From positions 1 through 31,849 of IMG/VR virus record IMGVR_UViG_3300041016_000609: a stretch of DNA of 31,849 nucleotides, one strand, 5' to 3'. The notes under the pieces were generated by a model that was not told where the DNA came from, did no database searches, and saw only the letters and a list, made by a program, of their open reading frames with translations. This document shows, piece after piece, positions 9,124 to 28,015 of the stretch. The translations under genes were made by a program, and so were the position numbers. This stretch comes from a virus. The first letter of the stretch is position 1, and every line of letters starts with the position of its first letter.

Positions 9124-9362
9124 AGTCCGAAGCCCAGCGCCTGCTTGATTTAATTTACGAGGATATGCGCAATGAGTTAGCGCCTGTTCCTCCAGGCTGG
9201 CATACTATTCGACACTATATGAAAGAGTGGGGGTTTTGCAGGTCGCAGACCGAGCGTTATATTAAAATTGCAATTAAGAAAAAAATAATAGAGTTACGTT
9301 ACTTTAAGGTTGTAATCAAAAAAAGGCTGACAAAAGTATCTTACTACAGAGCCACCAAATGA
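9120..9362 (+). CDS. Small winged-helix-like DNA-binding protein
   Basis: An 80-residue, strongly basic protein. A likely helix-turn-helix (WHTIRHYMKEWGFCRSQTERYI) is followed by a helix and a basic beta wing (FKVVIKKRLTKVSYY). It may read DNA as a local regulator. Start ATG 9120 is preferred over an in-frame TTG at 9105, because it makes an ATGA overlap with the preceding stop. The second half is noticeably more AT-rich than its neighbours, hinting at separate origin. Confidence 0.6.
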   Translation: MKSEAQRLLDLIYEDMRNELAPVPPGWHTIRHYMKEWGFCRSQTERYIKIAIKKKIIELRYFKVVIKKRLTKVSYYRATK

Positions 9363-10516
9363 GTAAACCAATCTGCTTTAAGATTCGGGGAGGCGTCGAG
9401 CGTGAAGACGGCTCGCGCGGGTCAAAGAACATCGGCAAGACCGCTGGCAAGGGATACCTTGGCGCAGAGGACAAAGCCTTTACTATTGGAGTAGCCCAAG
9501 ATCAGTACTTGTTTGCTAGCGAGGGCGAAGGAAACTACGCCTACCCTTTTGACCAGAAACCCACACACACAGGCAAAATGAAATACCTTTCTCTTTTCAG
9601 CGGCATTGACGCGGCCAGCGTTGCCTGGAACCCTCTCGGATGGGAAGCCGTCGGCTTCTCCGAGATTGAACCTTTCCCCTGCGAACTTCTCAAACAAAGA
9701 TACCCTAACGTACCTAACTATGGCGACATCACAAAATGGAAAGACTGGGGACTCGTCCCTGGATCAGTTGACCTTGTTTCCGCTGGAAGCCCCTGCCAAG
9801 CCTTCTCCTACGCAGGACTCCGAAAGGGTTTGGACGACCCGCGTGGCAACTTGGCCCTCGTCACCCTTGCACTTGTTGAACACCTTAAACCCAAGTGGTT
9901 CATTTGGGAAAATGTGCCTGGAGTCCTTACTTCGGACGGAGGAAGGGATTTTTCAACCTTTCTCACAGCATTGGGGGACATCGGGTATGGGTGGGCATAC
10001 CGCGTCCTTGACGCTAACTACTTCAATCTCGCCCAGCGGCGGCGGCGAGTCTGGCTTGTTGCGCACAGTTCTGGAGACTGGCAGTCTGCCGCAGGAACTC
10101 TATTTGACGAGCAAAGCCTGTGCTGGAATCCTGCGTCGAGCGGACGCAAAAGGCCGACCACTTCCTCCACATCTACGGAGTGCCTTGATGAAGGTGGTCT
10201 CCAGCGAAGCGTCGGAAGCATCTGCGCCGACTCTCACCCTGGATCTTACACAGGACAAGACGCCTACAGCGGAAGGCTAATCTCCGACTACGAGAATTTT
10301 AAGGTTCGCCGTTTAAGCGTAAAGGAATGTGAGCGCCTATTTGGATTTCCAGATGACTACACCAAAATTAACTGGCGCGGTAAATCGCTGGACGAATGTC
10401 CCCAAGGCTCAAGATATAAGGCCATCGGCAACTCTTGGGCAGTCCCTTGCGCCCGCTGGATCGGTGAGCGCATCAACCTAGTCGAGAGCATCAAAAATGA
10501 GCAAGCCATCGCCTAA
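9359..10516 (+). CDS. C5 cytosine DNA methyltransferase with N-terminal TRD-like extension
   Basis: From residue 74 the 385-residue product is a Dcm-type enzyme: LSLFSGIDAAS (SAM binding), SPCQAFS with catalytic Cys146, WENVPGV at 183-189, QRRRRV at 226-231, and C-terminal RRLSVKECERLFGFP and YKAIGNSWAVP. It would methylate cytosine C5, probably protecting phage DNA from host restriction. Residues 1-73 precede the usual start and contain FKIRGG, GKGYLGAEDKAFTI and QDQYLF, a pattern usually found in the target-recognition region of phage Dcm enzymes. An internal ATG at 9578 could give the core enzyme alone. A second protein appears to be encoded in another frame of the same DNA. Confidence 0.9.
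   Translation: MSKPICFKIRGGVEREDGSRGSKNIGKTAGKGYLGAEDKAFTIGVAQDQYLFASEGEGNYAYPFDQKPTHTGKMKYLSLFSGIDAASVAWNPLGWEAVGFSEIEPFPCELLKQRYPNVPNYGDITKWKDWGLVPGSVDLVSAGSPCQAFSYAGLRKGLDDPRGNLALVTLALVEHLKPKWFIWENVPGVLTSDGGRDFSTFLTALGDIGYGWAYRVLDANYFNLAQRRRRVWLVAHSSGDWQSAAGTLFDEQSLCWNPASSGRKRPTTSSTSTECLDEGGLQRSVGSICADSHPGSYTGQDAYSGRLISDYENFKVRRLSVKECERLFGFPDDYTKINWRGKSLDECPQGSRYKAIGNSWAVPCARWIGERINLVESIKNEQAIA
9720..10280 (+). CDS. Overprinted ORF inside the methyltransferase gene (GILRRA-signature protein)
   Basis: In the +1-shifted frame relative to the methyltransferase there is an open frame from about 9606 (TTG) with an ATG at 9720, giving 186 residues. It contains PSGGGESGLLRTVLETGS, then YLTSKACAGILRRADAKGR and LPPHLRSAL (residues 105-156). 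I recognise the pattern 'LSDVLETG..P..Y.LS.KACAGILRRA..RGK.LP..L..AL' from unnamed phage proteins encoded in or next to Dcm genes. A signature kept in this frame while the methyltransferase motifs are kept in the other suggests real dual coding. No function is known. No Shine-Dalgarno sequence is visible. Confidence 0.55.
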   Translation: MATSQNGKTGDSSLDQLTLFPLEAPAKPSPTQDSERVWTTRVATWPSSPLHLLNTLNPSGSFGKMCLESLLRTEEGIFQPFSQHWGTSGMGGHTASLTLTTSISPSGGGESGLLRTVLETGSLPQELYLTSKACAGILRRADAKGRPLPPHLRSALMKVVSSEASEASAPTLTLDLTQDKTPTAEG

Positions 10517-14493: not shown

Positions 14494-16629
14494 TTATGTG
14501 ATTAGGAAAGGATAAGGAGATGCTTCACCATCGTAATACAGGTAAAGGGTTTCACCTGTGCCTGTTGGCGAGAATGTCGATGTGTCATCTATTGTGTTTA
14601 AATACTGTGCCCCAGCGGACAAGTAAGACCACCCAAACAAGTAACCATTGATTTGAACTTTGAACTTACCTGCGACAATCCAATCATTGTTAATAGTGCC
14701 AGATGAGGGGTAGTAAAACCCTGTTACATAATATGAACCACTCCAATACGGGCCATTCTGATAGCCAGCAGTAACAGCCAACGCAATCGACTGCTTGTAG
14801 GTAACTCCAGGCGTAGCGGCCGTGGTCTGCACAGTCGAGTCACTAAAGGTAATGCCACCAGTACCAGAAGGGGAAAGGTTTATCCCGCTGTAAGTAAAGG
14901 TCGCATTACCCGATGGTCCAGGGACAGTAACGCCGCCATCGGAAGTAATCCCGCCAGTAAAAGACGGAGAAGCCAGCGGAGCGTAACCAGAAAATCCAGG
15001 GAATGCCGTGGTCTGAACAGTAGTATCACTAAAAGTAATACCGCCAGCCGAAGCAATATTCAGAGGGCTATCAAAGATGATTTGTTGAGCCGATCCGCTA
15101 TACCAATTAGTCAAGCGACCACCCTGCCAATTCAACTCATAGCCAACCGCACAAGTAAGCGAGATGCCTTGGTAGCCACCTGTTCCGTTGTCAAATGTAC
15201 CCTTGGCGACGTTCTGTAAGCCTACTGCATCAAAGGTGATTGCGCCAGTCATCGTACCACCAGCAAGCGGAAGGAATGAACCGCCGCCGCCACCGACAGT
15301 CGCCCAGATTAAGTCCGTGCCGTCATAGGTCAAAGCCTGCCCAGCAGTAGGTACTGTGCTGTCGAGGGTTGTGGTCGCTCCATTGGATAGCGTACCAACA
15401 GTTAGGCCAGACGCCGTTAGGTCTGCAAGCGTAGCAATCGGGTTGATGGCCGTGGGGGCGTGTGTGGTCGAGTTGATGGCCGCCGCAATATCAGATCCAT
15501 CAAGAACTACACCTAGGTTACCCCAGATGACGTCAACAGTTGCGTAGTCTGGCGACTGCGAAAGGTCTCGGCGCACGAAGCGTGCATTGGCTACAGCCTC
15601 GTCAAGGTAAGCGCCAAGCGGGATAGGAACAACAGCGCCACCAGCGACAACATCGGCGAAGACGTTACATCCAGCCTGCAAGAGGGTAAACTGATCTCCA
15701 CTAACATTCATCGAGACCTCAATGTTTGTTGAGCGCCTAGATTCGCCTCCTAGGAATTGGTGGCACTCGGCCGTGGAGAAGTTGATAGTACCTACATACC
15801 CATTATATCCAATTAGAAGGCCAGTTGCCGTTAGGGTTTCATCATCCGTAAGAACAATATCCCATTGGTACTGACCAGTCTGAAACACTTGGCTACCAAG
15901 CGCCGTAGCCATAGAGGACGCGCTAGTGTTGTAGTTGAAGGTCTGGTTGACTGTTCCGAAGGTAATCTGAATAGTCCCAGCGCGCGGCTGTGGGTCGATG
16001 CCAACTCGGTAAATTTTGTTAGTACCGCTCCAAGCCTGGATCAGAGTAGTAGTAACTACAGGGGAGGATAAAGGAGTCCAAGTTGTGGACATCGCAATCG
16101 GTGACTGCCGAAGTTCGACAAAGACAATCTGTCGAGTTCCAGCATCCCCAACCTGGACTAGGCTGATGGATTCATAGGCCGAAGGGGTAAGGGTATCCGA
16201 GCCTTGGCTAATGGTAGGCTTTAGGCCGTAGGTGTTCCAGGTGATAGTGTAACCAGTACCAGTCTTGGTTACAGTAACCCCACCCTCATCATCAACCGCC
16301 GCAATTGCATTAAGAGCGTCTTGTAACTGGGTGGTAGTAGCATTATAGGGAACAGGCTCGGTTTCGGTGCTATCTACAGTCAGTTCCCAAGTCCCGCCAG
16401 TAGGGTATTTGTTGGTATCACCTACGGCCACAGTAATCGCCGCACCAGCAGGGAATGGGACTTCAATGGGTGCGCTTCCAACGCCACTCGAAGCGACAAT
16501 GTGAAGTTCAAGTTGGGCTACGTTACCTTGGTAAAAGGAGGGGGCAGGCGCGCCGATAAACGCAAACTGGTTGGCCAGTAAGCGGTTGGAGTCTGTAGCC
16601 ATCCATAGGCGATAGGTGTTAATAGCCAT
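14494..16629 (-). CDS. Tail fibre / receptor-binding protein
   Basis: This 711-residue, Thr/Ser/Gly-rich, beta-type protein has little charge. The N-terminal third contains repeated beta-sandwich-like stretches. A GGGGGSFLPLAGGTMTGAITF linker near residue 450 leads into fibre repeats: YAPLASPSFTGGI and two copies of GGITFSD.TVQTTA. The 'LPLAGGTMTG' and 'apLaSPsFTG' motifs are typical of phage tail fibres. The C-terminal domain (after about residue 610) is Tyr/Trp-rich and likely contacts the receptor. The upstream 17-bp element TTTGACTCTAGGCTAAT lies close to its start, followed by an AAGGG Shine-Dalgarno-like stretch. Confidence 0.85.
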   Translation of the reverse strand: MAINTYRLWMATDSNRLLANQFAFIGAPAPSFYQGNVAQLELHIVASSGVGSAPIEVPFPAGAAITVAVGDTNKYPTGGTWELTVDSTETEPVPYNATTTQLQDALNAIAAVDDEGGVTVTKTGTGYTITWNTYGLKPTISQGSDTLTPSAYESISLVQVGDAGTRQIVFVELRQSPIAMSTTWTPLSSPVVTTTLIQAWSGTNKIYRVGIDPQPRAGTIQITFGTVNQTFNYNTSASSMATALGSQVFQTGQYQWDIVLTDDETLTATGLLIGYNGYVGTINFSTAECHQFLGGESRRSTNIEVSMNVSGDQFTLLQAGCNVFADVVAGGAVVPIPLGAYLDEAVANARFVRRDLSQSPDYATVDVIWGNLGVVLDGSDIAAAINSTTHAPTAINPIATLADLTASGLTVGTLSNGATTTLDSTVPTAGQALTYDGTDLIWATVGGGGGSFLPLAGGTMTGAITFDAVGLQNVAKGTFDNGTGGYQGISLTCAVGYELNWQGGRLTNWYSGSAQQIIFDSPLNIASAGGITFSDTTVQTTAFPGFSGYAPLASPSFTGGITSDGGVTVPGPSGNATFTYSGINLSPSGTGGITFSDSTVQTTAATPGVTYKQSIALAVTAGYQNGPYWSGSYYVTGFYYPSSGTINNDWIVAGKFKVQINGYLFGWSYLSAGAQYLNTIDDTSTFSPTGTGETLYLYYDGEASPYPFLIT

Positions 16630-16641
16630 AAGTCCCTTGGT

Positions 16642-16658
16642 ATTAGCCTAGAGTCAAA
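16642..16658 (-). promoter_or_regulatory. 17-bp late-gene element, copy before the fibre gene
   Basis: ATTAGCCTAGAGTCAAA on the + strand (TTTGACTCTAGGCTAAT on the coding strand) is repeated exactly at 25190-25206. It lies in the 40-base gap before the fibre start, with TTTGACT 22 bases from the ATG. Weaker relatives occur before the genes at 21682 and 27919. It is a candidate promoter -35 region or regulator site. Confidence 0.5.
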
Positions 16659-16669
16659 GGTGGTCAAGC

Positions 16670-17674
16670 CTATGGTTTAGTAACGCTGGTAATATAGAAA
16701 TCGTCGATATAGACGGCAAAACCATCTTCTTGAGGGATTTCAATTTCTTGAACCTCAATGGGTGATTCCGTGCAATTCGATTCACTTAATGTAACAGTCC
16801 AATCAATCTCGCTATGAAACGCTGGAGCGCCCCAACTAATTGAAAACCCAGCATAGTACCCAACAGTAGAAAGTGGAGTCATTGTTGCATATGACTTTTT
16901 GAATACAATCTTACCAGATATTGTAGCGCCTTCATTGAAACAACAAATCCTAGAATCCACCTTTAATGAGAGTCTTGCAGTATAGTCAAAACTTGTGTTT
17001 TCTGGATTGAAAGGAACATTCTCGCGCTCATCAGTCGCATAATTATAGACGAAACTCATACCGTTATAAACAGATGAATGCTGAAAACTGAAAAAACCAG
17101 TATATATTCCAGGAATCGCATTATAAATCGTTTCTAGGCTTTGTGGGTTAAACCCAGATGTGCCTGGATCGCCAGATGCTACTGTAGAGTTAAACCAATC
17201 GTATGGATCTGATTCAGTCCATCTTGGGTATAATTTTAAATTTCCCTCAAATACGGTATCAGTAGAAAAGTCGTATGGAATACCATTGGGATGCAATGGT
17301 GGATCCATAGCAGTTACTGTATCTAAAGGGTATGTGCAATCCATATGCCCATTCTTGAATGTTATATAAATCCTAGTCCCAAAATAATGGTTTGGGTCAA
17401 GACCTCCACTTCCTTCTCCAACTTTTAACTCTTGAAGTACAACAAGGTTATCTGGGGTTGTTAATGGATACCAGTTGAACGCGTTGTAGTTAGTCCAGAA
17501 ATATTCCCCAAGGTTATCAAATACATTGTACATCGTTGATACAAGCACGCCTCTTTGTCCTGGAGGCGGTGTATATGGCATTGGCATATTATAAAATTCA
17601 TATCCAGGCCATCCGATATCGTTATACTCACCAAGGTATACCAAAGTGAACGGATCTTTGTGCGGAATTGTCAT
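16670..17674 (-). CDS. Hypothetical tail-associated protein
   Basis: This 334-residue protein is rich in Tyr, Phe, Asp, Asn and Pro, with little Lys and no coiled coil or TM, consistent with a beta-rich virion protein. Its last third holds two adjacent Cys (ICCFNEG). I do not recognise it. It begins by ATGA overlap with the preceding gene and lies directly before the fibre gene, so a tail-tip or fibre-adaptor role is plausible. It is clearly more AT-rich than the head genes, suggesting recent exchange of a host-recognition module. Confidence 0.7.
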   Translation of the reverse strand: MTIPHKDPFTLVYLGEYNDIGWPGYEFYNMPMPYTPPPGQRGVLVSTMYNVFDNLGEYFWTNYNAFNWYPLTTPDNLVVLQELKVGEGSGGLDPNHYFGTRIYITFKNGHMDCTYPLDTVTAMDPPLHPNGIPYDFSTDTVFEGNLKLYPRWTESDPYDWFNSTVASGDPGTSGFNPQSLETIYNAIPGIYTGFFSFQHSSVYNGMSFVYNYATDERENVPFNPENTSFDYTARLSLKVDSRICCFNEGATISGKIVFKKSYATMTPLSTVGYYAGFSISWGAPAFHSEIDWTVTLSESNCTESPIEVQEIEIPQEDGFAVYIDDFYITSVTKP

Positions 17675-18276
17675 ACCCTGCTATACCAGTAATTAGCCAA
17701 AGCGCTTCCGCATTTAAATCTGCTACCCCAAAGGGAGGAATTAATCATTTGATTTACTACGCCAGTTTTTCTGTCAACGGAGGCAATCATCACCCAAGAG
17801 TTATTATCTTCGTCAAATTGGGGTGTTGACTCGTTTATAATTTTGCAAGTTGCTGGGTCTGGGAATCTGTATGGATCTGCACTCTCTGGCTTTAGTGAGA
17901 TGTAAATATACTCCTGCTCATTTACTAACAGGTTCTTACTGAATTTTGCTGTTGGTGCTGGAGTGTTGGTAAGCACAACAGGTGGAGTGCCCATCTTTGG
18001 TACTACGTTGTTAACTGTTCCAGGCCAAACGGAATACTTCCATTCGTTCCCATCTGAAACAACGGAAACCGTGAATGGAAGGATGATGCGTGTGTAGTCT
18101 GGTGGAGGGCTGGATAGGGCAAGCCCCCCCGCGTGGCTCTGGTAGATAACGCCATCTGAAACGCCTACGGCCGCCTTGTCAGCATAATCGGCAAGCCGAT
18201 TAAGTTGTTTGGCGTAAATTGCATCTCCAGGAGCGAAACTGCCAGAGTTGTTATTTCCGAATCCTTGGAGTCCCAT
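17671..18276 (-). CDS. Hypothetical tail-associated protein
   Basis: A 201-residue protein starting MGLQGFGNNNSGSFAPGDAIYAKQLNRLADYADKA, an opening reminiscent of trimeric structural proteins. A beta-rich region with many Pro, Ser and Asn follows. The start overlaps the preceding stop (TAATG) and its own stop overlaps the next gene's start. AT-rich like its neighbours. No family recognised; a tail-tip role is inferred from position between tape measure and fibre. Confidence 0.68.
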   Translation of the reverse strand: MGLQGFGNNNSGSFAPGDAIYAKQLNRLADYADKAAVGVSDGVIYQSHAGGLALSSPPPDYTRIILPFTVSVVSDGNEWKYSVWPGTVNNVVPKMGTPPVVLTNTPAPTAKFSKNLLVNEQEYIYISLKPESADPYRFPDPATCKIINESTPQFDEDNNSWVMIASVDRKTGVVNQMINSSLWGSRFKCGSALANYWYSRV

Positions 18277-19217
18277 TAGCCTAGACTGCTTGGTAGGTTA
18301 GGGTCTACAGGGTAGATATCTGGATCCCAACCAATGATTCCAGATAGCATAAGGTCAGCCTGCACTTTATAAAGGCCGCCAAAAATTTCCATAGATGCGT
18401 TGGTGCAAAGATAATTTCTCCGTCGGTCATAACTGACACCTGCTGGAAGTTCTGCTGTTAATTCCGTGTCGTAGTTTGCCGCTAGGTTTGCGTATGGATC
18501 TGGAAGATTGATAGCGCCAATCCATCCGTAATTAATCCATCCTACGCGTGATAGTGTTTTTTTAGCCTCCGATTCACTATCGGTATAGACCAAGCACCGA
18601 AGGATAATAGATGGACGAAAGTATGAACGCACCCCAGCCTTTAAGTTAACAGCGTCGGCAGGGTTCTGCGCTGGAAGGAATCCAGCAAATGAGTACTGAA
18701 CGGCCTGGAGGGCTGTAGGCTGTGTAATTGCAAAGTGCGCCCTGTTCGGGTTCTTGGTAAGATCACTTTCGTTTTCAGCGATGTACTTGGCCGCACCAGC
18801 CAATGGCTTACCATTGCCAATCTGCTTGATTTGAACCTTGGTGAAATTAGGGTGTGTCTCAATGGCCTCCATAGCCGTGGCGCTTGATACTTGGACTTGA
18901 GTTACAGTATTAGAAGCGCCATCTTCAATCCCGCAATATTCACAGGCAACAGTCACAGTACCATTATTGGTACTAGCGGAGACACGATGAAGCGTAAGGT
19001 ATTCAAGACCCTCAATAGGCGGTGGGTCGCCGCGCTTAAAGTCCGTAGTGATATCATAGGACTTGTCAGAGTCAGCGGTGTACTTCACCTGCATAGTAAC
19101 TAGACCAAATCCATCGTGCTGGATAGTCCAGTTCTTCTCCATCACATACCTATCGTTGATATCAACGCCTTTTTGCTTATAGGTTATGGGCTTTGGTTGG
19201 TAGATATTAATCGACAT
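18276..19217 (-). CDS. Hypothetical tail protein after the tape measure
   Basis: This 313-residue protein is mixed alpha/beta with a KNWTIQHDGFGLVTMQVKY segment near residue 28, and CEYCG at 96-100 that could be part of a small metal site. It is the first gene after the tape measure, where distal tail or baseplate hub proteins usually lie, but no lambda M/L/K/I/J-type motif is visible. It begins 1 base after the tape-measure gene's stop. Not recognised. Confidence 0.7.
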   Translation of the reverse strand: MSINIYQPKPITYKQKGVDINDRYVMEKNWTIQHDGFGLVTMQVKYTADSDKSYDITTDFKRGDPPPIEGLEYLTLHRVSASTNNGTVTVACEYCGIEDGASNTVTQVQVSSATAMEAIETHPNFTKVQIKQIGNGKPLAGAAKYIAENESDLTKNPNRAHFAITQPTALQAVQYSFAGFLPAQNPADAVNLKAGVRSYFRPSIILRCLVYTDSESEAKKTLSRVGWINYGWIGAINLPDPYANLAANYDTELTAELPAGVSYDRRRNYLCTNASMEIFGGLYKVQADLMLSGIIGWDPDIYPVDPNLPSSLG

Positions 19218-19218
19218 A

Positions 19219-20775
19219 TTATTTGGATACAGCGCCGTTAGTATCAGCGGGTGGAGGTGTGTTGTTGCCGCCGCCGCCAGATCCAGCGGCTATTGTTTCA
19301 GTAGCGACTGCGGTGCGTACTGTGGCATCACGAATTTCTTCAAGTGGATTAATCCGCTGGATTGCAGATAGTACATCACCGCCGCCGACGGCTTGCAAGG
19401 AAGAAGCGGCTTGAAAGATGCCTGTTTGAAAGTTAGGCTTTTTGTTCTTTTTTTCTTCAGCAATTTCCTTATCCATAGCCTCAAGAATCTTCTTTTTTCT
19501 ATCTTCAAAGTCGATGCCAATACGCGATTGTATATCTGGGTAAACGTCTTCTACTTTTAAGCCAGATACCATCCGACGTACATCTTCCTTACTCTGTCCA
19601 GGCATACGGATACCTTCATCTTCATAGGTAGCCTGTCTAAATCCAGGAATGACAATTCCAGGTGCATTTCTCAATGCACGTCCTCCGCTTGAATTGAAAG
19701 GTCTGTTTAATCTATTTGCGGCGTGTTCAGCCGCCCAAGGAGTTCCATATGAAAATTCAGAGTCACCAAAAATTCGTCTTGCAGTACCCTGCATTTGAGG
19801 GCCGAATCCAGTTACCCAATTTGTAAAGCCAGTAGTAAACGAGTCCCAGACATTCGTTCCAACTCGCCCACCAGCGGCGGCGGCCTGGATGTCCAATTCT
19901 CCAACAACAGGGGCGCGATTTGCCATTTTTTCGATTTCGGCAGACCCGCCTTTAAGGAGAGGGATAAGGTTCTTGTATTGATCTCCGAAGAGTTGAGTAC
20001 CTAGGCGAGCCAACTCAACGCTTTCTCCGTAGTTCTTGTAGTGGTCGGCCATCTTCTTGATGACGTCCATAGAGGACACACTATGGGTTCGCACGCCCTC
20101 AATGCTGATACCAAGGCGTCTAAATGTCGCCGTATTAGATCCACCCTCAAGAGCCATCTTGCCCAACTCCTTATTTCCAGACGCTACAGAAGATACAAAC
20201 TCTTCCATAGACACGCCAGTCATCTGGGCGGCGTAACCATAGCGCTGGACGTCCGTGGTGGATAGGCCAGTAATGCGCGAAAACTTATCGACCTTCTGGG
20301 CGTATTCAGCGCCGTTCTTTACGGCATTTACAAACTGTTGACCAAGGAATGTGGCAATATTAGCGCCGCTCAACATATCGGCAAAGTTGCTACTCATATC
20401 CTTCTTAAACTCGTCACCCCAACCCTTCTCCCAAGGCAACTTGGCGCGACCTCTACCACCACCGCCGCCTGCGCCACCTGCGCCTGGAGCGCCACCTGGA
20501 GGAGGTGGAGGCGGTGTTTGAGGTGTATTCGGAGACGGATTAGGAGGCGGTACAGGCGCAGGAGGGCGCGGCGGTACAGGCGGTACAGGCGCTACAGGCG
20601 GTACAGGCGGTACAGGCGTCGGCGGCTTTGGAGTCGGTCCAGGGACAGTCGGAGGCGTAGATCCTGGATTAGGAGTAGGGGTAGTTCCAGGAGTAACAGG
20701 AATAGTCCCTGGAACAGTTACGCCCTGTAGGCCAGTTGTGTCCGCTACGAACTTTACTTTGACTTCGTCGCTCAC
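19219..20775 (-). CDS. Short tape measure-like protein with a proline-rich N-terminal segment
   Basis: The 518-residue protein has an unusual Pro-rich stretch at about residues 25-95, then a Gly-rich linker, then helical tape measure-like sequence: DKFSRITGLSTTDVQRYGYA, TGVSMEEFVSSVASG, and ELARLGTQLFGDQYKNLIPLL at about 250. That last block is the pattern of phage tape measures. The family determines tail length; by the roughly 1.5 angstrom per residue rule this would give a tail of at most about 78 nm. The Gly/Ala-rich hydrophobic segment usual in tape measures is weak. The C-terminus ends in a Gly/Asn/Pro-rich tail. Confidence 0.72.
   Translation of the reverse strand: MSDEVKVKFVADTTGLQGVTVPGTIPVTPGTTPTPNPGSTPPTVPGPTPKPPTPVPPVPPVAPVPPVPPRPPAPVPPPNPSPNTPQTPPPPPPGGAPGAGGAGGGGGRGRAKLPWEKGWGDEFKKDMSSNFADMLSGANIATFLGQQFVNAVKNGAEYAQKVDKFSRITGLSTTDVQRYGYAAQMTGVSMEEFVSSVASGNKELGKMALEGGSNTATFRRLGISIEGVRTHSVSSMDVIKKMADHYKNYGESVELARLGTQLFGDQYKNLIPLLKGGSAEIEKMANRAPVVGELDIQAAAAGGRVGTNVWDSFTTGFTNWVTGFGPQMQGTARRIFGDSEFSYGTPWAAEHAANRLNRPFNSSGGRALRNAPGIVIPGFRQATYEDEGIRMPGQSKEDVRRMVSGLKVEDVYPDIQSRIGIDFEDRKKKILEAMDKEIAEEKKNKKPNFQTGIFQAASSLQAVGGGDVLSAIQRINPLEEIRDATVRTAVATETIAAGSGGGGNNTPPPADTNGAVSK
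20573..20617 (+). repeat. Five tandem 9-bp repeats within the tape measure gene
   Basis: Five consecutive 9-bp units of GGTACAGGC (one unit GCTACAGGC) run without interruption. In the coding direction each unit encodes three residues, PVP-type, and they make up the centre of the Pro-rich segment. Flanking units are more degenerate. Such repeats can change copy number by slippage. Confidence 0.85.
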
Positions 20776-21338
20776 GCTTTAGATGACTCCAGTTGTTTAA
20801 GGAATTCCATAGCCTTGACGTCTTCCTCTGTAATTACCGTAATATCACCTCCGTCGGAGACTAGATTTGCGATGTACATCCACATAGCCTCGCACTCATT
20901 CATAGTCCAGGCTTGTTCGTAGGACATACCATTACGCATCAAGTTGGTAACGCAGGAAAGTACTAAATTTATGCCCCTCCCAGCGCCATTGCGCTTCTTA
21001 TCCCAGATGATGGGCATATTGTCGTTGAACTTGATATAGTCGGCCATTTTGTGCATCTCCTGCTCATAGTAGCCAGAATCCAAAAATAACTCTGTAAACT
21101 TTAACGATTCATCGTCGGTAGGCTTTACGCATAGCATTTCCTTTAGGTCGTGCGTAGACAGGATGCGCGCGGCGATTACGAGGTCAGATGGTTCAAAGGG
21201 GTTGTCTGTAAGAATTACAGGTGACTCAATTTCCGTAAGAACAAGTCTATGCCTCATCGACATAGGCTTCAAGATACGGCCGCATACCTCCATCTCTATG
21301 ATGGAGGACTTTACGGCCTGTATAAAGCGGCTATCCAT
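20772..21338 (-). CDS. Possible tail assembly chaperone
   Basis: This 188-residue protein lies immediately upstream of the tape measure, where lambda G/GT-type chaperones lie, and overlaps its start by 4 bases. It is soluble, Met- and acidic-rich and mostly helical (LVIAARILSTHDLKEM, then YEQAWTMNECEAMWMYIANLV). No slippery sequence or extended second frame was seen near the end, so a programmed frameshift is not supported. Assignment is by position and composition. Confidence 0.6.
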   Translation of the reverse strand: MDSRFIQAVKSSIIEMEVCGRILKPMSMRHRLVLTEIESPVILTDNPFEPSDLVIAARILSTHDLKEMLCVKPTDDESLKFTELFLDSGYYEQEMHKMADYIKFNDNMPIIWDKKRNGAGRGINLVLSCVTNLMRNGMSYEQAWTMNECEAMWMYIANLVSDGGDITVITEEDVKAMEFLKQLESSKA

Positions 21339-21352
21339 TGCCGCCTGCGTCT

Positions 21353-21682
21353 TTAAATCTGCTCGTACTTGACGCCACGCACGGAGACTTTGCGATACTC
21401 TTGATTAGAGCCGCGATCCGTGACTTCCTTGAGGATGTAGGTGATGCCACCATACGACATCTCTTGGCCAACTTCTGGCGAACCAGATGCCCTAACAACG
21501 CCTTCAAGGGTGATTTCGTCGCGATGGTCATCCAGGCGGTCAGTAATAACTCGACCCTGTTCATCCATCACTTCGACGTCAAGAGCATAGCGGGTGGTAT
21601 GGCTGTCGGATTGAACGACCATATCGAGCCGAGATCCAAGGACGCCGTAGATAAGAGCAACACCATATTCAATTGCAGACAT
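21353..21682 (-). CDS. Hypothetical tail protein, beta-rich
   Basis: This 109-residue protein is beta-rich: TTRYALDVEVMDEQGRVITDR, EITLEGVV, YGGITYILKEVTD, and NQEYRKVSVRGVKYE. The last segment resembles a small phage protein found between tail terminator and chaperone genes that I have seen as unnamed tail protein. It occupies the place of lambda V (major tail protein) but is much shorter than V. The upstream gap contains a TTTGACT element. Role in the tail tube or completion is inference. Confidence 0.6.
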   Translation of the reverse strand: MSAIEYGVALIYGVLGSRLDMVVQSDSHTTRYALDVEVMDEQGRVITDRLDDHRDEITLEGVVRASGSPEVGQEMSYGGITYILKEVTDRGSNQEYRKVSVRGVKYEQI

Positions 21683-21711
21683 AGTAGTAGATTGTTAACC
21701 CTAGCCCGCAG

Positions 21712-22140
21712 TCAAACTTGAGGGGGTAGCACGGCTACGGCCGTGTAAGTGATGAGGTTTCCGTAGTTTCGGCCTTTCATACCTTCGTCGTCAGATTCGA
21801 TCCAGCAGGCGTACAGTTGACCTTCATTAGTACCCCATAGGTCTTTTAACGCTTGGGCATCTGACATATGGCCGTGAACCTTGGATACGCGCTCTCGGTG
21901 GGTTTCAAGGGTGTCGTCATCGGCCGAGGAATAGACGTAAATTTCGACCTTAACGCTGTAATTACCCAAGTTGTTAGACCCTAGGTCTTTTTCTGGAGCG
22001 GCGCTAGATGCATAGACAATAATCATCGGCATTTGCCGAAGGTCGGGGGTGATACCCTTATTGACCAATATTCCAGGGATATTGGTAGAAATATAGGTCG
22101 AGAATTTATCCTCGATGATGGATCGGATGAGTGCGCTCAT
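21712..22140 (-). CDS. Tail terminator / completion-like protein
   Basis: This 142-residue protein shows the layout of lambda U / DUF3168-type proteins: an N-terminal helix (LIRSIIEDKFSTYI), a strand MPMIIVYASS, then SVKVEIYVYSSADDDTLETHRERVSKVHGHM and a C-terminal strand LITYTAVAVLPP. It would cap the tail tube and join it to the head. Its place between the connector and tail genes matches. Assignment is based on pattern and order, not a strict motif. Confidence 0.62.
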   Translation of the reverse strand: MSALIRSIIEDKFSTYISTNIPGILVNKGITPDLRQMPMIIVYASSAAPEKDLGSNNLGNYSVKVEIYVYSSADDDTLETHRERVSKVHGHMSDAQALKDLWGTNEGQLYACWIESDDEGMKGRNYGNLITYTAVAVLPPQV

Positions 22141-22142
22141 TG

Positions 22143-23123
22143 TTAGGGAAGGTTTGTGTTGAAACCTTGTCCTACGCTGTAATGCGAGGCAAGGTGATAA
22201 AGTTGGTCGGCTCTGCCTTGTGCTACGAGTTTTTGGTACATCTCTACCCTCATAGAATAAGCCCTATAATTTAAGGCCAGCCTGTAGCCGTCTTTGGTAG
22301 CCCTATGCAATCCTTGAACCCTATTACCTACCTCAACCCAAGGTACAGTAGGGTTACTCAATTTGTTGTTCATTATGCCAGTACCCCATTGGTTTCCTTT
22401 AATCCAAGCACCCGCCTTAATCTTACCAAGTTGAGAGCCAGCGCTGTACCATCCAGCCTTGAGTTCACCTACCCTAGCCTGGACGCGCTTAATGTAGGCT
22501 CTAACCTTCTCGCCATTGTCATCTACGACGTACTTGTCGCCAAATGTAGCGTGCGCGCCCATATGCTCAAAGTACTCGGATACTTTATTACCACCTCGCG
22601 CTTTTTCGTGGAGTGACTTGATGTTACCTGTGTAGTAAGTAGAAAGGTCTACGCCGTGGGCAGACAAGGCTTGGTCTTGGGCAAATTTCCAATTCTGGAA
22701 CTTATTCCAGGCTGTTAGGCCACCCGCGCTGTATGCGTCTTGTAATAGCCAATTTGGCAACTTTGGATCTGGGAGGCTTTTTCGAGCGCGTAGCCAAGCG
22801 CTAAAAATACCTATATGTCCGTAACTCAAGATATCGCCAGCCTTCACATAGGCCAATGGTAGGAAGATTTTTGAAATCTGGCTTTCCACGACGGCTTGGC
22901 CAAGTTTCTGTGCCTGCCTGGATCGGCCATCCTGCCCCATCCCGCCAGAGAATGGCATCGTAAAATCAAGCATATCGTCGCAGAACAACTTTGCCTGCTT
23001 CTGGAGTAGTTTGGCGGCAGACCCACCCATAATGAGCAGGTAAGCCCCTAGGTGCTGACGGAATTCCTGTTGGTTTACGACAACGCCTTTTTTTACCGTT
23101 ACGACTCCACCTGGAGTGTTCAT
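22143..23123 (-). CDS. Hypothetical head-tail or minor tail protein
   Basis: This 326-residue protein is basic and aromatic-rich with many Gly/Tyr/Trp, and helical in the first 60 residues (QEFRQHLGAYLLIMGGSAAKLLQKQAKLF). That region resembles HK97 gp10- or lambda Z-like connector proteins in general shape. It starts by ATGA overlap with the connector gene and ends 2 bases before the tail terminator-like gene. No specific motif is recognised; place in order suggests tail completion. Confidence 0.58.
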   Translation of the reverse strand: MNTPGGVVTVKKGVVVNQQEFRQHLGAYLLIMGGSAAKLLQKQAKLFCDDMLDFTMPFSGGMGQDGRSRQAQKLGQAVVESQISKIFLPLAYVKAGDILSYGHIGIFSAWLRARKSLPDPKLPNWLLQDAYSAGGLTAWNKFQNWKFAQDQALSAHGVDLSTYYTGNIKSLHEKARGGNKVSEYFEHMGAHATFGDKYVVDDNGEKVRAYIKRVQARVGELKAGWYSAGSQLGKIKAGAWIKGNQWGTGIMNNKLSNPTVPWVEVGNRVQGLHRATKDGYRLALNYRAYSMRVEMYQKLVAQGRADQLYHLASHYSVGQGFNTNLP

Positions 23124-23467
23124 TGAACCTTCGTCTGCACGCGGGCAATGATCCAGGCGGCAGGGGGGCGGTCAGCGACGGCTACGATGCGGTATTCCTC
23201 GCCATTGTAGGTCACGATATTGCCGTAGGCGAATAAGCCTGGAACGGTGGTATTGGTAGACCTCAAAACCTTAACCTCAAAGGTGGTCTGATTAAGGAAG
23301 CCGCCAGTTTCCATATCCTGCAACACCATCGGCTGGGTAATCATAGCCTTTAAGGCTACTGGCGTGCCTCCAGGGACGATTTTAACGGTGATGTCCTTGC
23401 CTACCTCATTAAGGACGGAAAGGGCGTCTACAGCGGCATCTTCAAAAAATCCCATATGCTTTGCCAT
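23120..23467 (-). CDS. Head-tail joining protein (FI/FII position)
   Basis: This 115-residue, beta-rich protein follows the major capsid protein. It shows ALKAMITQPMVLQDMETGGF and FAYGNIVTYNGEEYRIVAV, a pattern like small head-tail joining proteins of the lambda FII type, where a loop binds the portal and tail. The start ATG 23467 lies 11 bases from the base of a strong hairpin; ATG 23455 is also possible. It overlaps the next gene by 4 bases. Confidence 0.7.
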   Translation of the reverse strand: MAKHMGFFEDAAVDALSVLNEVGKDITVKIVPGGTPVALKAMITQPMVLQDMETGGFLNQTTFEVKVLRSTNTTVPGLFAYGNIVTYNGEEYRIVAVADRPPAAWIIARVQTKVQ

Positions 23468-23478
23468 AGGTCAAAAGG

Positions 23479-23510
23479 AAGAGGCCGCCCCCGAAATGGA
23501 GCGGCCTCTT
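23479..23510 (-). terminator. Strong hairpin after the major capsid gene
   Basis: AAGAGGCCGC (23479-23488) and GCGGCCTCTT (23501-23510) form a perfect 10-bp stem with a 12-base loop. Read in the late direction it is followed by CCTTTTG, a short T-tract. It probably causes partial termination or protects the 3' end of capsid mRNA. Confidence 0.75.
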
Positions 23511-23523
23511 TGCTTTGGCGCTT

Positions 23524-23544
23524 GAGGGGGGCACTTGCCCCCTC
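23524..23544 (-). terminator. Second hairpin directly after the major capsid stop codon
   Basis: GAGGGGG (23524-23530) pairs with CCCCCTC (23538-23544) around a 7-base loop, 6 bases after the capsid stop codon. It has no T-tract. With the next hairpin it makes a two-hairpin block between the capsid and connector genes. Confidence 0.65.
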
Positions 23545-23550
23545 GAAACT

Positions 23551-24447
23551 TTAAACAAACTTAATCTTCTGGAGGGCGTCGGGGTTACCCTTCGCCGAAC
23601 CGATGAGCCACGTCGCGGACAACTTGTGCAGACCCTGCGTCCAGTCGTACCAGTAGCGGAGAGCATACGAGAACTGGCTGTCGGGATCGGTCACGATGGT
23701 CTGTTCGCCACCACCAGTCGTGGGAGCGGCAGGAACGCGGGTCACGACGACAAGACCTTCGCGGCAGGAAACCACGCCATTAAGGCCAGCCTCGATGCCA
23801 GCGGCGTCAAAGCCGTTGTACTCGTAGAAGTCAACGCCGTGGATCATACCGAGGCGGTTGCCGCGGATGACGTCAGTCGTGCCGATGGAGAACGCCTGCG
23901 CAATGACAGGGTCGGAGATTAACTGCTGGTAGGCATCGGGCGAGACAAGCGCGGAGCGGCCTTCCTGCGGAAGGTTAGCGAGCGTAAGGCTCTTGGCGAT
24001 GTTGGAGACCGCGATGCGGTTGAAGTTGGCCTGCGTGCCAGAATAGCCATCAGCAAAGGCGCTATCGACCTTGGTGAGGACTTGGTCGAACAGCGACTTG
24101 ACGACAGCGTTAGCCATCGGGGCCATAAAGAGGCGGCGCAGACGATCCAGGGAGAGGGTAGCAACTTCGTAGTCGGTGAAACCGATGGTGACGTGCTTCT
24201 GGTCAACAAGGGTAACAGGAACGTCGGTGGACACGGCGTCAACAGTAGCAAAGCCAGTCGCGCGAGAGTAATCTGCGGCGGTGAACTTACCAGCGTAGCG
24301 GGTGTGTACAGTCGATCCGCGTTCAGCAACATAAGCGCCGAAGTCGGTGACCGCGATTTTGGTGAGAGGCTGGAGTTGCGGAACGAGCGTCCGCAAGGAT
24401 TCTTCAGCGACGAGTTGGAGGGTTAGACCTCCGATTGCGTTAGCCAT
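23551..24447 (-). CDS. Major capsid protein
   Basis: This 298-residue protein has the coat protein pattern: an N-terminal arm (ANAIGGLTLQLVAEESLRTLVPQLQPL), AVSTDVPVTLVDQKHVTIGFTDYEVATL near residue 70, ALVSPDAYQQLI near 160, and a C-terminal beta-rich region with ALRYWYDW. The VTLDQ..HVTIGFTD block is shared with P22-like and other HK97-fold coat proteins. It is GC-rich and likely highly expressed, sits after the scaffold and decoration-position genes, and is followed by two hairpins. The leader before ATG 24447 is CA/A-rich without Shine-Dalgarno. Confidence 0.85.
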   Translation of the reverse strand: MANAIGGLTLQLVAEESLRTLVPQLQPLTKIAVTDFGAYVAERGSTVHTRYAGKFTAADYSRATGFATVDAVSTDVPVTLVDQKHVTIGFTDYEVATLSLDRLRRLFMAPMANAVVKSLFDQVLTKVDSAFADGYSGTQANFNRIAVSNIAKSLTLANLPQEGRSALVSPDAYQQLISDPVIAQAFSIGTTDVIRGNRLGMIHGVDFYEYNGFDAAGIEAGLNGVVSCREGLVVVTRVPAAPTTGGGEQTIVTDPDSQFSYALRYWYDWTQGLHKLSATWLIGSAKGNPDALQKIKFV

Positions 24448-24478
24448 AGTATTTTATTTGGGTGAGGGGTGAAAAGTA

Positions 24479-24715
24479 TTACGAAACATTTCCAGTAACT
24501 TTCTCAAAGCCAGTCTTGGAAACTTCGTCTCGGTAACGATAGTTGAAACCGATTTCAAAATCCATTGGGCCGCCTGGAGGGGAGGTTTCAGTAAGTTTGA
24601 CACTAAAAGAAACATTGGTGACGCCGCTGTTTGCATTGGCATCAGCGACAATCAAAGACCAGTTTGCAGTCAGTAAAGCGCCGAGTTCGGCGGTAAGGGT
24701 AGCGGGGAGTGCCAT
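24479..24715 (-). CDS. Small protein in the decoration-protein position
   Basis: A 78-residue protein between scaffold and major capsid, where lambda has gpD. It has an N-terminal helix (TLTAELGALLTANWSLIV) and beta-rich later part (NVSFSVKLTETSPPGGPMDFEIGFNYRY). No gpD motif is recognised, so it could be a decoration protein, a capsid chaperone or another head protein. It ends 31 bases before the capsid gene. Confidence 0.6.
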   Translation of the reverse strand: MALPATLTAELGALLTANWSLIVADANANSGVTNVSFSVKLTETSPPGGPMDFEIGFNYRYRDEVSKTGFEKVTGNVS

Positions 24716-24721
24716 AAATGT

Positions 24722-25183
24722 TTATCGAAGATTAGCGGCGGCCAGGATCGCGGAGCGATTCTTGGAATAGAACTCTTGCGCGGCTTTTGGATCCTTCTGC
24801 TTGATAGCCGCCCATTCTTGGGCAACTTCATCATTGGTCTTGGAAGCCATTTCATCAGCGACAGGTGCGCATTCAACAGGCTCTACGCCGACAGAGGCGG
24901 CAATCTTGGCGGCCTTCTTGGCGGCGGTCTCAAAGGACTGCTCCAGGGCGGCGTACTTCTTCGTAGCCTCGGAAACGGTGTTTTCCATTTCAGAGATGCG
25001 AGCGGCGGCCTTGGCGAGTTCAACCTTATGCAGGTCTGAAGACTTCGTCAATTCAGCAACGAGGGCTTCCTTTTCGGTAATGGAGATACGAGCGGCAGTA
25101 AGTTCGGTGGCAATGTTATCCACTTCGGCAGACTTAATACCAAGCGCTTCCTTGATCTTGTTAAAGGACTCTTCGATGGTCAT
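24722..25183 (-). CDS. Scaffold-like coiled-coil protein
   Basis: The 153-residue protein is almost all helical with long heptads of Ala, Glu, Lys and Leu (residues 20-105) and a more basic C-terminus. It lies between the prohead protease and capsid genes, where lambda Nu3-type scaffolds lie. The C-terminal basic helical part could bind the coat protein. It begins with no Shine-Dalgarno, 16 bases after the TTTGACT element (25200-25206). Family not named by motif. Confidence 0.72.
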   Translation of the reverse strand: MTIEESFNKIKEALGIKSAEVDNIATELTAARISITEKEALVAELTKSSDLHKVELAKAAARISEMENTVSEATKKYAALEQSFETAAKKAAKIAASVGVEPVECAPVADEMASKTNDEVAQEWAAIKQKDPKAAQEFYSKNRSAILAAANLR

Positions 25184-25189
25184 ATTGCA

Positions 25190-25206
25190 ATTAGCCTAGA
25201 GTCAAA
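25190..25206 (-). promoter_or_regulatory. 17-bp late-gene element, copy before the scaffold gene
   Basis: Identical to 16642-16658 (TTTGACTCTAGGCTAAT on the coding strand). It lies in the gap between protease and scaffold, with TTTGACT 16 bases from the ATG at 25183, the same distance as the TTTGACT before 27919. Confidence 0.5.
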
Positions 25207-25207
25207 T

Positions 25208-26017
25208 TTAGGATAGGAGGATGGCGTCGATGCCATCCACAATGCCAGTCACAAGCCCCTTGGTGGCGGCCTTCTTGCCCTCAAAAACTTGACCCTCCAT
25301 ATCCTCATCTTTGGCAAATAGACGGCGGCGCTTAATAGTCTGTTTAAATTGGTCGTGGCGCTCATCGACATCATCCTGGAGGAATTTCTTATCATCTTTG
25401 GTTAGGGACGTGCCTTCCAGACCCATAGCCTTATGCTTACCAGCCTTGATTACGTCCATTTTTACGCCTTCCATCGCGTAGGCTTCGGTTAGATCAGCAA
25501 ATGCGATGTATACCCCAACCGACCCCCAAGCAGAGGAAGGGGTGGCGTAGACTCGGTCACATCGGGAAGCCAGTTCATAGGCGGCAGAGCAACATTCAGT
25601 CTCGCTGTAGGCCGTAGTTCGTTTTGCTGACTTTTCAATCCTTTCTCCAAGTTCCTCAAGGCCATCACACGTCCCGCCTGGAGAATTGAATTCAAGGACA
25701 ATCTCCTCAACAGACGTGTCGGCTAATGCCTTTTTAAGATTCTCGGTGACGTCGTTTAAATCGACGGCATTGCAACGCTTCTCGATTTCGGATAGGTTCT
25801 TGCCGATTACACCACAGACAGGGATGATGGCCTTATTGCCAACAATCTCCATCTCGCGCGGCTTACCAAACATTAACTCCAGCATATCATTAACGGCGCT
25901 GGCGTTTGTTTCTGGGGTAATATTGATATCGGCAACCGCATCCAAGTAGGTCTTGGCGCGCATCAAATTGATCTTCAGAGGGCGACTGCCCTTGAATGCG
26001 TTAAGAAGGTTCTTCAT
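25208..26017 (-). CDS. S49-family prohead protease (lambda C-like)
   Basis: The 269-residue protein has NSPGGTCDGL at 111-120 and CCSAAYELASRCDRVYATPSSAWGSVGVY at 142-170, and KAGKHKAMG at 191-199. Ser144 and Lys196 are 52 apart, as in SppA-type Ser/Lys dyads. It would process the scaffold and capsid during head maturation. An N-terminal extension of about 60 residues precedes the core. It lies between portal and scaffold, the lambda B-C-Nu3 order. The start ATG 26017 has an A/T-rich leader without Shine-Dalgarno. Confidence 0.88.
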   Translation of the reverse strand: MKNLLNAFKGSRPLKINLMRAKTYLDAVADINITPETNASAVNDMLELMFGKPREMEIVGNKAIIPVCGVIGKNLSEIEKRCNAVDLNDVTENLKKALADTSVEEIVLEFNSPGGTCDGLEELGERIEKSAKRTTAYSETECCSAAYELASRCDRVYATPSSAWGSVGVYIAFADLTEAYAMEGVKMDVIKAGKHKAMGLEGTSLTKDDKKFLQDDVDERHDQFKQTIKRRRLFAKDEDMEGQVFEGKKAATKGLVTGIVDGIDAILLS

Positions 26018-26042
26018 TGGTTAGAAAAAATAAAAAATAAAA

Positions 26043-27623
26043 TCATTCCCCTAGTGGGTCTTCTCGCTCGTCTGATTCAGCATCATCAATGTCAAGTTGG
26101 GTTTCTTTTTGTTCACCCTTCTCGTTTTCATCATCAGCCTGTTCATCGGCCTCGACGTTGTCGGAATCACTAATGTCTTGAAGGCCAACATTAGTTGGCT
26201 TTAAAAGCATCCACAGAGGCACTCCGTATTCCTTGGAGGCATCGATGAACATCTTGGCTTCCACGGCACGACGGCGAAGCATCGTGGAGAAATGTTCGCC
26301 TTCTTCTTGGCAGTTCTCACCAATGGTCTTTAGGCCAAACTCGATGTCTGCTCGGTTCTGGGCGGCATCTCGGCCAGCGTCTACTGTGACACGCTTTGGC
26401 GTAGTCCAGATTACCTTATTCCAGTTCTCACAGGAAGGAAGTTCTCCGCGAGCAATGGCATTGCCAATGACGTAACCCCAGACAGGCGTAAGGAATCGGT
26501 TGATTAAGACGCGCTGTAGGTGCTGGAACTTGCGGTCAGCCTTTGCCACAATGAGGCGCATTGAACTGCCACTAGCCTTGGAAGGATCATAGAGGAATTC
26601 ATAAGGTAGAGTTCCAGCCACGGAATCACGAACAAGATATTCAAGGAATCCATTGAAGGTCGGGTTGGGACGATTCGATTGGAAGGACTCTAAACGCTCG
26701 CCTGGAGCAAGAGCAAGGATTTTACCGCCAATAAAGGTGGACGCCTCATTAGGGTTGGTCTGACCATCACCATAGTCCTGTGGGCGCATCCCAAAGGCTT
26801 CAAAGTCAGACTGTGCGCCATCGAACTGGGCAGTCTCGCGGGTGAGGGTACGGACGACGTCGCCGTTCATCTTGACCGCAAATTTCTCAAGGCTGACGAT
26901 TTCCAGCATATCAACGATGTTATTGATGCTATGTTGAAGTGGGCTGTACGCGCGAGCGCCAGACGCTACTTCTGGCTCATAGACGTGCATCACAGCATTA
27001 GCGCCAACCTTCCTGGATGATCCGTCAGAGCGAATGATATTAAACCAATCTGGTCGGCCATACTTGCCGAAGTGGATACCATCCACCATATGCGGCTCTG
27101 GAGCGGCGGCATTTGCGCAGGCAACGCGGTGGGATTCAATTAACTGAATGCGCGGCTCACCAGAGGCATTGCGGGTCTTAATTGGGAAGCATTCGCCGTC
27201 ACGATATACGAGGCGCGCGATGATATGCTGGAGTTCGTAGAAGTTAAAGCGGCCAGTAATGTCGCAAGGATTGGAAGCCCATTCGTCAAAGTACTCCTCG
27301 TATTTCTGGTCTACGCTTGCAAAGCCAGTCCTAGACTGTGCCTTGATGCCGTCACCTACCGAATACAAGGCCATATCGGAGAGAATCTGGCGGATTACGC
27401 CAGCGTTCAACTCCATCCAGCGCATTTTGCGCGTAGTTTCAAGGCGGTCAAAGACCGTCATCGTCTTCTTGAAATCAGTCGGCCAAGACGACCAAATCCA
27501 AGAACGCTTGTTAGAGAACTTTGCCGACTCGAAATTCGAGAAGATCCCTGGACCACCTGTGGCCTGTTTCTTCAACGGATCAGAAGAGGACTTCTTCTTT
27601 TTTTCGGGAATTTTGCGCGCCAT
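26043..27623 (-). CDS. Portal protein (lambda GpB family)
   Basis: The 526-residue protein fits the lambda portal family: a basic tail, MELNAGVIRQILSDMALYSVGDG, RDGECFPIK, HVYEPE, PTFNGFLEYLVRDSVAGTLP, and SSMRLIVAKADRKFQHLQRV followed by LTPVWGYVIGNAI. The C-terminus is strongly acidic (many Glu/Asp). It forms the dodecameric channel at the capsid vertex. It lies between the W-like gene and the protease. ATG 27623 has GAGGT at about 14 bases, an unusually long spacing. Confidence 0.9.
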   Translation of the reverse strand: MARKIPEKKKKSSSDPLKKQATGGPGIFSNFESAKFSNKRSWIWSSWPTDFKKTMTVFDRLETTRKMRWMELNAGVIRQILSDMALYSVGDGIKAQSRTGFASVDQKYEEYFDEWASNPCDITGRFNFYELQHIIARLVYRDGECFPIKTRNASGEPRIQLIESHRVACANAAAPEPHMVDGIHFGKYGRPDWFNIIRSDGSSRKVGANAVMHVYEPEVASGARAYSPLQHSINNIVDMLEIVSLEKFAVKMNGDVVRTLTRETAQFDGAQSDFEAFGMRPQDYGDGQTNPNEASTFIGGKILALAPGERLESFQSNRPNPTFNGFLEYLVRDSVAGTLPYEFLYDPSKASGSSMRLIVAKADRKFQHLQRVLINRFLTPVWGYVIGNAIARGELPSCENWNKVIWTTPKRVTVDAGRDAAQNRADIEFGLKTIGENCQEEGEHFSTMLRRRAVEAKMFIDASKEYGVPLWMLLKPTNVGLQDISDSDNVEADEQADDENEKGEQKETQLDIDDAESDEREDPLGE

Positions 27624-27628
27624 AAATC

Positions 27629-27919
27629 TTATAGACCTCGGAAGTTATTCAGAAGGTTACCGACGCGAGTGCGGTCAATTCCACCATAAATTTCTGGGGC
27701 TTTGATTTGCAGGGCATAGCGGCACTCCAGAAGGACGGTAGGAGGGTCGATAGGCCAGTCTTTTCGGATGTCCGTGCCAGAATCTTTGTATTCCATAATC
27801 GTCTTCCCCTCGGTTACGATTGAAACGGCTTTATCTCGGATAAGTTCAATCTGAACTATCGTAAGGGTCATAAAAATGCCCTTTGGAGAAGTAGACCCAC
27901 GATAATGAACGAAAGCCAT
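27629..27919 (-). CDS. W-like head completion protein
   Basis: A 96-residue small protein located between large terminase and portal, where gpW lies in lambda. From Met17 it has MTLTIVQIELIRDKAVSIVTEG, a helical opening, then strands and a C-terminal basic tail. I do not see strict gpW motifs, so the name rests on position and size. An internal ATG at 27871 (80 residues, AAGGG upstream) is an alternative start. At 27919 the TTTGACT element lies 16 bases upstream. Confidence 0.62.
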   Translation of the reverse strand: MAFVHYRGSTSPKGIFMTLTIVQIELIRDKAVSIVTEGKTIMEYKDSGTDIRKDWPIDPPTVLLECRYALQIKAPEIYGGIDRTRVGNLLNNFRGL

Positions 27920-27935
27920 AGCAAGAATTGCCAGA

Positions 27936-27942
27936 AGTCAAA
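27936..27942 (-). promoter_or_regulatory. TTTGACT element before the W-like gene
   Basis: TTTGACTTCTGGCAAT on the coding strand, related to the exact 17-bp pair at 16642 and 25190, with TTTGACT 16 bases from the ATG at 27919. It lies in the structured gap after the large terminase. Confidence 0.4.
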
Positions 27943-27945
27943 TGG

Positions 27946-28011
27946 GCGTATTACCTCCCCCACAACAACGACGCTTGAGAGCCACCCAAGACCATTAAGG
28001 AGATAATACGC
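27946..28011. promoter_or_regulatory. 13-bp inverted repeat in the terL-W gap
   Basis: GCGTATTACCTCC (27946-27958) and GGAGATAATACGC (27999-28011) are inverted copies with one mismatch, 40 bases apart. They flank the whole gap between the terminase stop and the W-like gene. It could be an RNA stem that slows late transcription, or a protein-binding site. Confidence 0.5.
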
Positions 28012-28015
28012 TTAA

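Follow-up and report, generated by a model that had tools for sequence, protein, structure and literature searches.

A small protein conserved in the +1 frame of phage C5-cytosine methyltransferase genes, a candidate accessory partner of the enzyme

In the C5-cytosine DNA methyltransferase (MTase) M.EcoHK31I, the small polypeptide is encoded inside the gene of the large one, in another reading frame. This enzyme, a YGGCCR C5-MTase, consists of two polypeptides (Lee, Kam and Shaw 1995, as cited in PMC3404938), of which, according to the summary in PMC3404938, the large one contains motifs I-VIII and X and the small one motif IX. M.AquI has two subunits, with motifs I-VIII and motifs IX-X, respectively (PMC3404938). 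In Paenibacillus phages Lily and Shelly, gp63 and gp56, respectively, are annotated as +1 'internal genes' of the MTase; in the beta-type phage family of such ORFs (loci L324-L403), motif IX lies in the nested +1 ORF and is absent from the large polypeptide (alpha), in 70 of the 80 loci by pattern and in several more by eye. It was noticed that many phages (Paenibacillus, Lactobacillus and others; L324-L403, L240, L241 and L243) have this EcoHK31I-like arrangement, with motif IX in the nested +1 ORF and not in the MTase ORF, and that both ORFs of a pair are often labelled DNA methyltransferase. Nesting of a second polypeptide in a C5-MTase gene is known, and nested ORFs of phage MTases are already on record as annotations; new here are a different core, the retention of motif IX by alpha and the wide spread. 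A literature search, with most subscription journals outside its scope, found no paper on the MTase overlap described below.

The stretch of DNA analysed here (the window) is a virus record of 31,849 bases. The features of its MTase gene and of the nested frame are as follows.

9359..10516, plus strand: C5-cytosine DNA methyltransferase (alpha) ORF, 385 aa (Pfam PF00145, E=1.2e-52; TIGR00675, above cut-off; phrog_116, E=7e-85)
9587-9628, plus strand: MTase motif I, in the MTase frame
9720..10280, plus strand: nested +1-frame protein, 186 aa, ATG to stop (open frame; same-frame homologues in related loci; alternative-frame selection)
9765..9779, plus strand: QLTLF segment near the nested N-terminus, common to nested beta-type proteins of other phage MTases
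9785..9817, plus strand: MTase motif IV (catalytic PC), in the overlap, by motif location
9896-9922, plus strand: MTase motif VI, in the MTase frame
10011..10202, plus strand: conserved core of the nested protein, residues 98-161 (alignments, predicted structure, strongest alternative-frame constraint)
10031..10060, plus strand: MTase motif VIII (QRRRRVWL), in the overlap and inside the start of the nested core, by motif location
10071-10085, plus strand: LETGS, in the nested +1 frame
10113-10157, plus strand: KACAGILRRADAKGR, in the nested +1 frame
10161-10187, plus strand: LPPHLRSAL, in the nested +1 frame
10304-10363, plus strand: MTase motif IX, in the MTase frame, 3' of the nested stop
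10412-10447, plus strand: MTase motif X, in the MTase frame, 3' of the nested stop

With motifs I, IV, VI, VIII, IX and X all located, the window alpha has the features of a C5-cytosine DNA methyltransferase (PF00145), and a protein with motifs I-X should, judged from its sequence, be able to work alone. The MTase domain proper begins at M 9578, with the usual start MKYLSLF. Ahead of it, 9359-9577 encodes a 73-residue N-terminal extension, IRGGVEREDGSRGSKN...AFTIGVAQDQYLF, which we take to recall segments of phage MTase variable regions.

The +1 frame is free of stops from 9582 to 10280. A preliminary description of the window had placed all cytosine MTase motifs in one frame and LETGS, KACAGILRRADAKGR and LPPHLRSAL in the other, and each was located as listed above; the 186-residue product that it proposed is given by ATG 9720 to the stop at 10280. 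Its start codon, TTG 9606, is probably too early and is left unsupported, since in the window's own clade the +1 constraint begins near 9720 and is absent before it among close relatives. The segment YFLSSKACAGILRR is present in the +1 frame of P1 dmt. A Shine-Dalgarno sequence with a start codon was found 79-91 codons 5' of the core in 29 of 65 loci, against 8.5 expected and 6-8 in control windows, an indirect sign of a separate start; ATG 9720 of the window itself has no clear Shine-Dalgarno sequence.

Compared with M.EcoHK31I, the window family likewise combines a C5-MTase with a second small polypeptide, nested in another frame. The alpha of M.EcoHK31I, as summarized in the source cited above, is without motif IX, whereas that of the window has IX and X, as do 292 of the 313 window-family loci, and the nested protein of the window ends in a helical core that does not contain motif IX. 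The Lily gp63/Shelly gp56-like ORFs (L324-L403; phrog_1008-like) are matched in the +1 frame, in a start just 5' of motif IV and in QLTLF, and their N-terminal half can be aligned with the window family; in the C-terminal half they have an LPTPTASD region and motif IX, where the window family has a GILRRA core. Against a profile of the phage beta family, the N-terminal half of the window family outscored every one of 40 synonymous shuffles in 28 of 65 loci, and no counterpart of the core was found in the phage beta family. As in M.AquI, three of the 313 loci (L108, L196 and L201) have motifs I-VIII in an alpha that ends early without IX-X, and in their +1 ORF the core is followed in frame by motifs IX-X, but the window and 292 of the 313 keep IX-X in alpha. 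These fusions could have originated from single indels or sequencing errors.

Selection on the +1 frame was assessed in 65 non-redundant loci picked without reference to the nested frame. Against circularity, the MTase N-terminus probe used lies outside the overlap, and loci were also fetched with the MTase itself. For the first tests (shuffles, codon choice and early rates) loci had partly been fetched by the core motif, and the rates were redone on the unbiased set. In the core, the dN/dS-like ratios SN/SS and NN/NS were 0.33 and 0.41 for the nested frame and 0.57 and 0.71 for the MTase frame over the same bases, values that are uncorrected counts, valid as contrasts only, from pairs that share ancestry. 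At the protein level, purifying selection is stronger on the core than on the MTase frame that it overlaps. In the same 65 loci, the +1-frame ratios 5' of the nested ORF were 0.66 and 1.08. Constraint on the nested ORF's N-terminal part was weaker in the wide set (0.41-0.54 and 0.79-0.90) and clear in the window's own clade (0.24-0.32 and 0.26-0.82), where the ratios were 1.17 and 1.35 upstream and 0.62 and 0.86 downstream of the stop; the tail segment 3' of the core was covered by 32 pairs only. Within the core of the unbiased set, dSS was 1.11 versus a dSN of 0.37, so that sites silent in both frames are not depressed and those that are silent in the MTase and change the nested protein are, which is the outcome of the codon-aware check that had been proposed. 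In the closest relative (96% identical in the overlap), there were 6 MTase-silent changes over 385 nt of the ORF and 25 over 236 nt that follow its stop codon (Fisher p=1e-6).

Synonymous shuffling with the MTase residues fixed left the core open in 32 loci by expectation, against 114 of 114 observed, in a set biased by partial picking on the core; the 75 codons 5' of the core, which were not used for picking, were open in 94 of 114 versus 13 expected. In a likewise partly core-picked set, MTase codons are frozen in the core, with Val as GTT in 97 of 97 cases (27 expected) and Pro as CCG in 87 of 87 (31 expected); codon choice is near expectation before the nested ORF and, past the core, approaches normal again. 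Ahead of the core, about 85 codons of the nested frame are open and constrained. Purifying selection on a second-frame protein, the mark of an overlapping gene, is therefore present, and the earlier impression of some 560 bases of double coding is borne out by protein-level selection on both frames. It is nearly certain that the nested +1 frame at 9720-10280 is a real gene.

Homologues are abundant in this frame. A tblastn search with the +1 product found them in 130 phage records (E up to 1), and a consensus-like query for the core matched 137 phage and 533 plasmid records; some tblastn and alignment probes were typed consensus-like strings rather than natural sequences, and served for searches and a search profile, not for the selection tests. 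The core-positive plasmids are mostly non-mobilizable ones of E. coli and Salmonella, and the feature matched is usually a Dam-family MTase, as in P1. One core pattern had at least 600 viral and more than 400 prokaryote matches, of which the best 80 of each scan were read. The core was present in 80 of 80 viral loci picked by the MTase N-terminus (the best 80), the relation to the MTase was +1 in every locus with a computed frame, and among the 313 loci examined (the best 80 of each scan) no core was found apart from an MTase. The preliminary description had assigned the signature to unnamed phage proteins in the same relation to Dcm genes, and this +1 placement indeed recurs in hundreds of phage and prophage loci, including P1 dmt, P7 dam and Vibrio, Caulobacter, Mycobacterium and Akkermansia phages (Akkermansia phage Chantilly among them) and a Providencia phage.

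Stops or decay beside an intact MTase, which would have counted against the gene, were seen in a few outlying lineages only. In Pectobacterium phage ZF40 the core has diverged and the N-terminal part of the nested frame contains stops; in two Brevundimonas jumbo phages the core is degenerate. The MTase is intact in all three. Because of these phages the nested protein looks accessory, and from their sequences it appears to be dispensable for the MTase in some lineages. As natural losses, ZF40 and the Brevundimonas loci (L413, L411 and L414) may be useful for studying the role of the nested protein. In a Vibrio lentus phage and a Mannheimia phage the MTase is truncated or rearranged and the core is absent. 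In Mycobacterium phage Thibault the core is annotated as an 82-aa ORF, gp104, which lies behind an HNH insertion; the MTase gene there looks broken.

Database comparisons gave nothing convincing for the nested protein in Pfam, NCBIfam and PADLOC, zero matches in a PDB sequence search and none under E=0.001 in PDB fold searches; the only entries of a viral fold library to stand out were Thibault gp104 (E 0.005) and the phage MTase record ctDgT26 (E 0.016). AlphaFold2 predicted helices at residues 111-120, 131-144 and 150-167, with a mean pLDDT of 96 over residues 131-160; for the whole protein the mean was 68, the model being confident for the helical core only and poor outside it. The window ORF was matched at 1.6e-6 by phrog_1008, which we infer, from its matches rather than from its member list, to be the nested beta family. 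Another family, phrog_16143 (139 positions), matched 10 of the 14 nested-family members that had been aligned, at E=3.6e-11 for the best, and did not reach a match with the window protein. It is labelled DNA methyltransferase, apparently by mis-transfer, and the overlap with the MTase is not mentioned there. Since phrog_16143 matches most family members, some deposited genomes annotate the nested frame, Thibault gp104 being one case.

Because two-polypeptide C5-MTases of the M.EcoHK31I type and nested phage pairs exist, the role, for which the preliminary description had offered a partner, a regulator or an anti-restriction factor, can be narrowed, by analogy, to that of an MTase partner. We give about an even chance that the nested protein, on which selection is evident, would be a separately translated, beta-like accessory partner of the surrounding MTase. 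Ribosomes would start inside the MTase gene, just 5' of motif IV. The helical core at the C-terminus of the resulting small protein would bind the MTase, or the MTase on DNA, and the protein might tune MTase assembly, target choice or activity, in a layout of the same nested kind as M.EcoHK31I and the phage alpha/beta pairs. Since alpha keeps motifs IX and X, the nested protein would not be needed to supply them and could be lost in some lineages. A partner would account for the association with the MTase, for the fusions and for the resemblance to beta. The model gives no reason for a complete alpha to need one, and the degenerate cores indicate that it is not always needed; for these two reasons we go no further than an even chance. 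Somewhat more tentatively, the GILRRA core may be an undescribed domain that occurs nowhere but overprinted on phage C5-MTases, P1 Dmt among them, and that acts in trans on specificity, timing or activity, so that many phage MTases would be two-protein systems from one DNA stretch.

The alternative that survives best, possible though unlikely, is a genuine small phage protein whose function has nothing to do with the MTase, e.g. a DNA-binding regulator or a counter-defence factor, and which was overprinted once and is now locked to its host gene. It would suit a core that is the most constrained part, is unlike MTase domains and has no family or fold match, and Thibault gp104, which carries the core in a broken-looking MTase gene. 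It is opposed by the failure to find the core apart from an MTase among the 313 loci, by the three loci that fuse it to motifs IX-X and by the N-terminal similarity to the nested beta family.

A programmed frameshift from the MTase, by which an N-terminal MTase fragment would end in the core instead of the usual C-terminus, is improbable: that the core is nested, always in +1, with constraint peaking there, would be expected of it, but the +1 frame is already open and constrained some 85 codons before the core, and starts with Shine-Dalgarno sequences are enriched at one place. Still less probable is that a beta subunit lost motif IX and is now decaying as a relic. Degenerate forms do exist and the beta similarity is restricted to the N-terminal half, but the selection data disfavour decay, the constraint being family-wide and, in the core, exceeding that of the MTase frame. 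Finally, it is hardly credible that the frame is a by-product of MTase conservation or codon bias, or a nucleotide-level element (RNA structure or DNA site), although both frames derive from a single conserved gene: the shuffles do not reproduce the open frame and, with the two-frame rates, reject the former, and the free variation of sites silent in both frames (dSS 1.11 versus dSN 0.37 in the core) disfavours the latter.

Since the nested gene is widespread and annotated in few records, many phage 'cytosine methyltransferases', P1 dmt too, may have an overlooked partner. Assays of activity or specificity with alpha alone may mislead, and knock-outs of the MTase gene are confounded by the nested gene. 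The locus also lends itself well to the study of deep overprinting, here with the nested frame under the stronger constraint over the core.

Insertions in the MTase gene were also noticed. In the Mycobacterium Omegavirus phages Thibault (L237, 1824-2441) and Constella (L404, 1524-2141), an HNH ORF lies in the MTase gene in another frame and adjoins motif VIII; the MTase annotated in Constella extends across this ORF. Intein-like insertions directly 5' of the motif IV CQ were seen in the P1-like plasmid p1606e (L236, VVHNCQAFS) and in Mannheimia phage 587AP2 (L412, VVHNCQ).

Elsewhere in the window, helicase and primase genes are on the plus strand, and structural genes occupy 14494-29938 on the minus strand, among them the following.

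28016-29938, minus strand: terminase large subunit
26043-27623, minus strand: portal
23551-24447, minus strand: major head protein
19219-20775, minus strand: tape-measure-like protein
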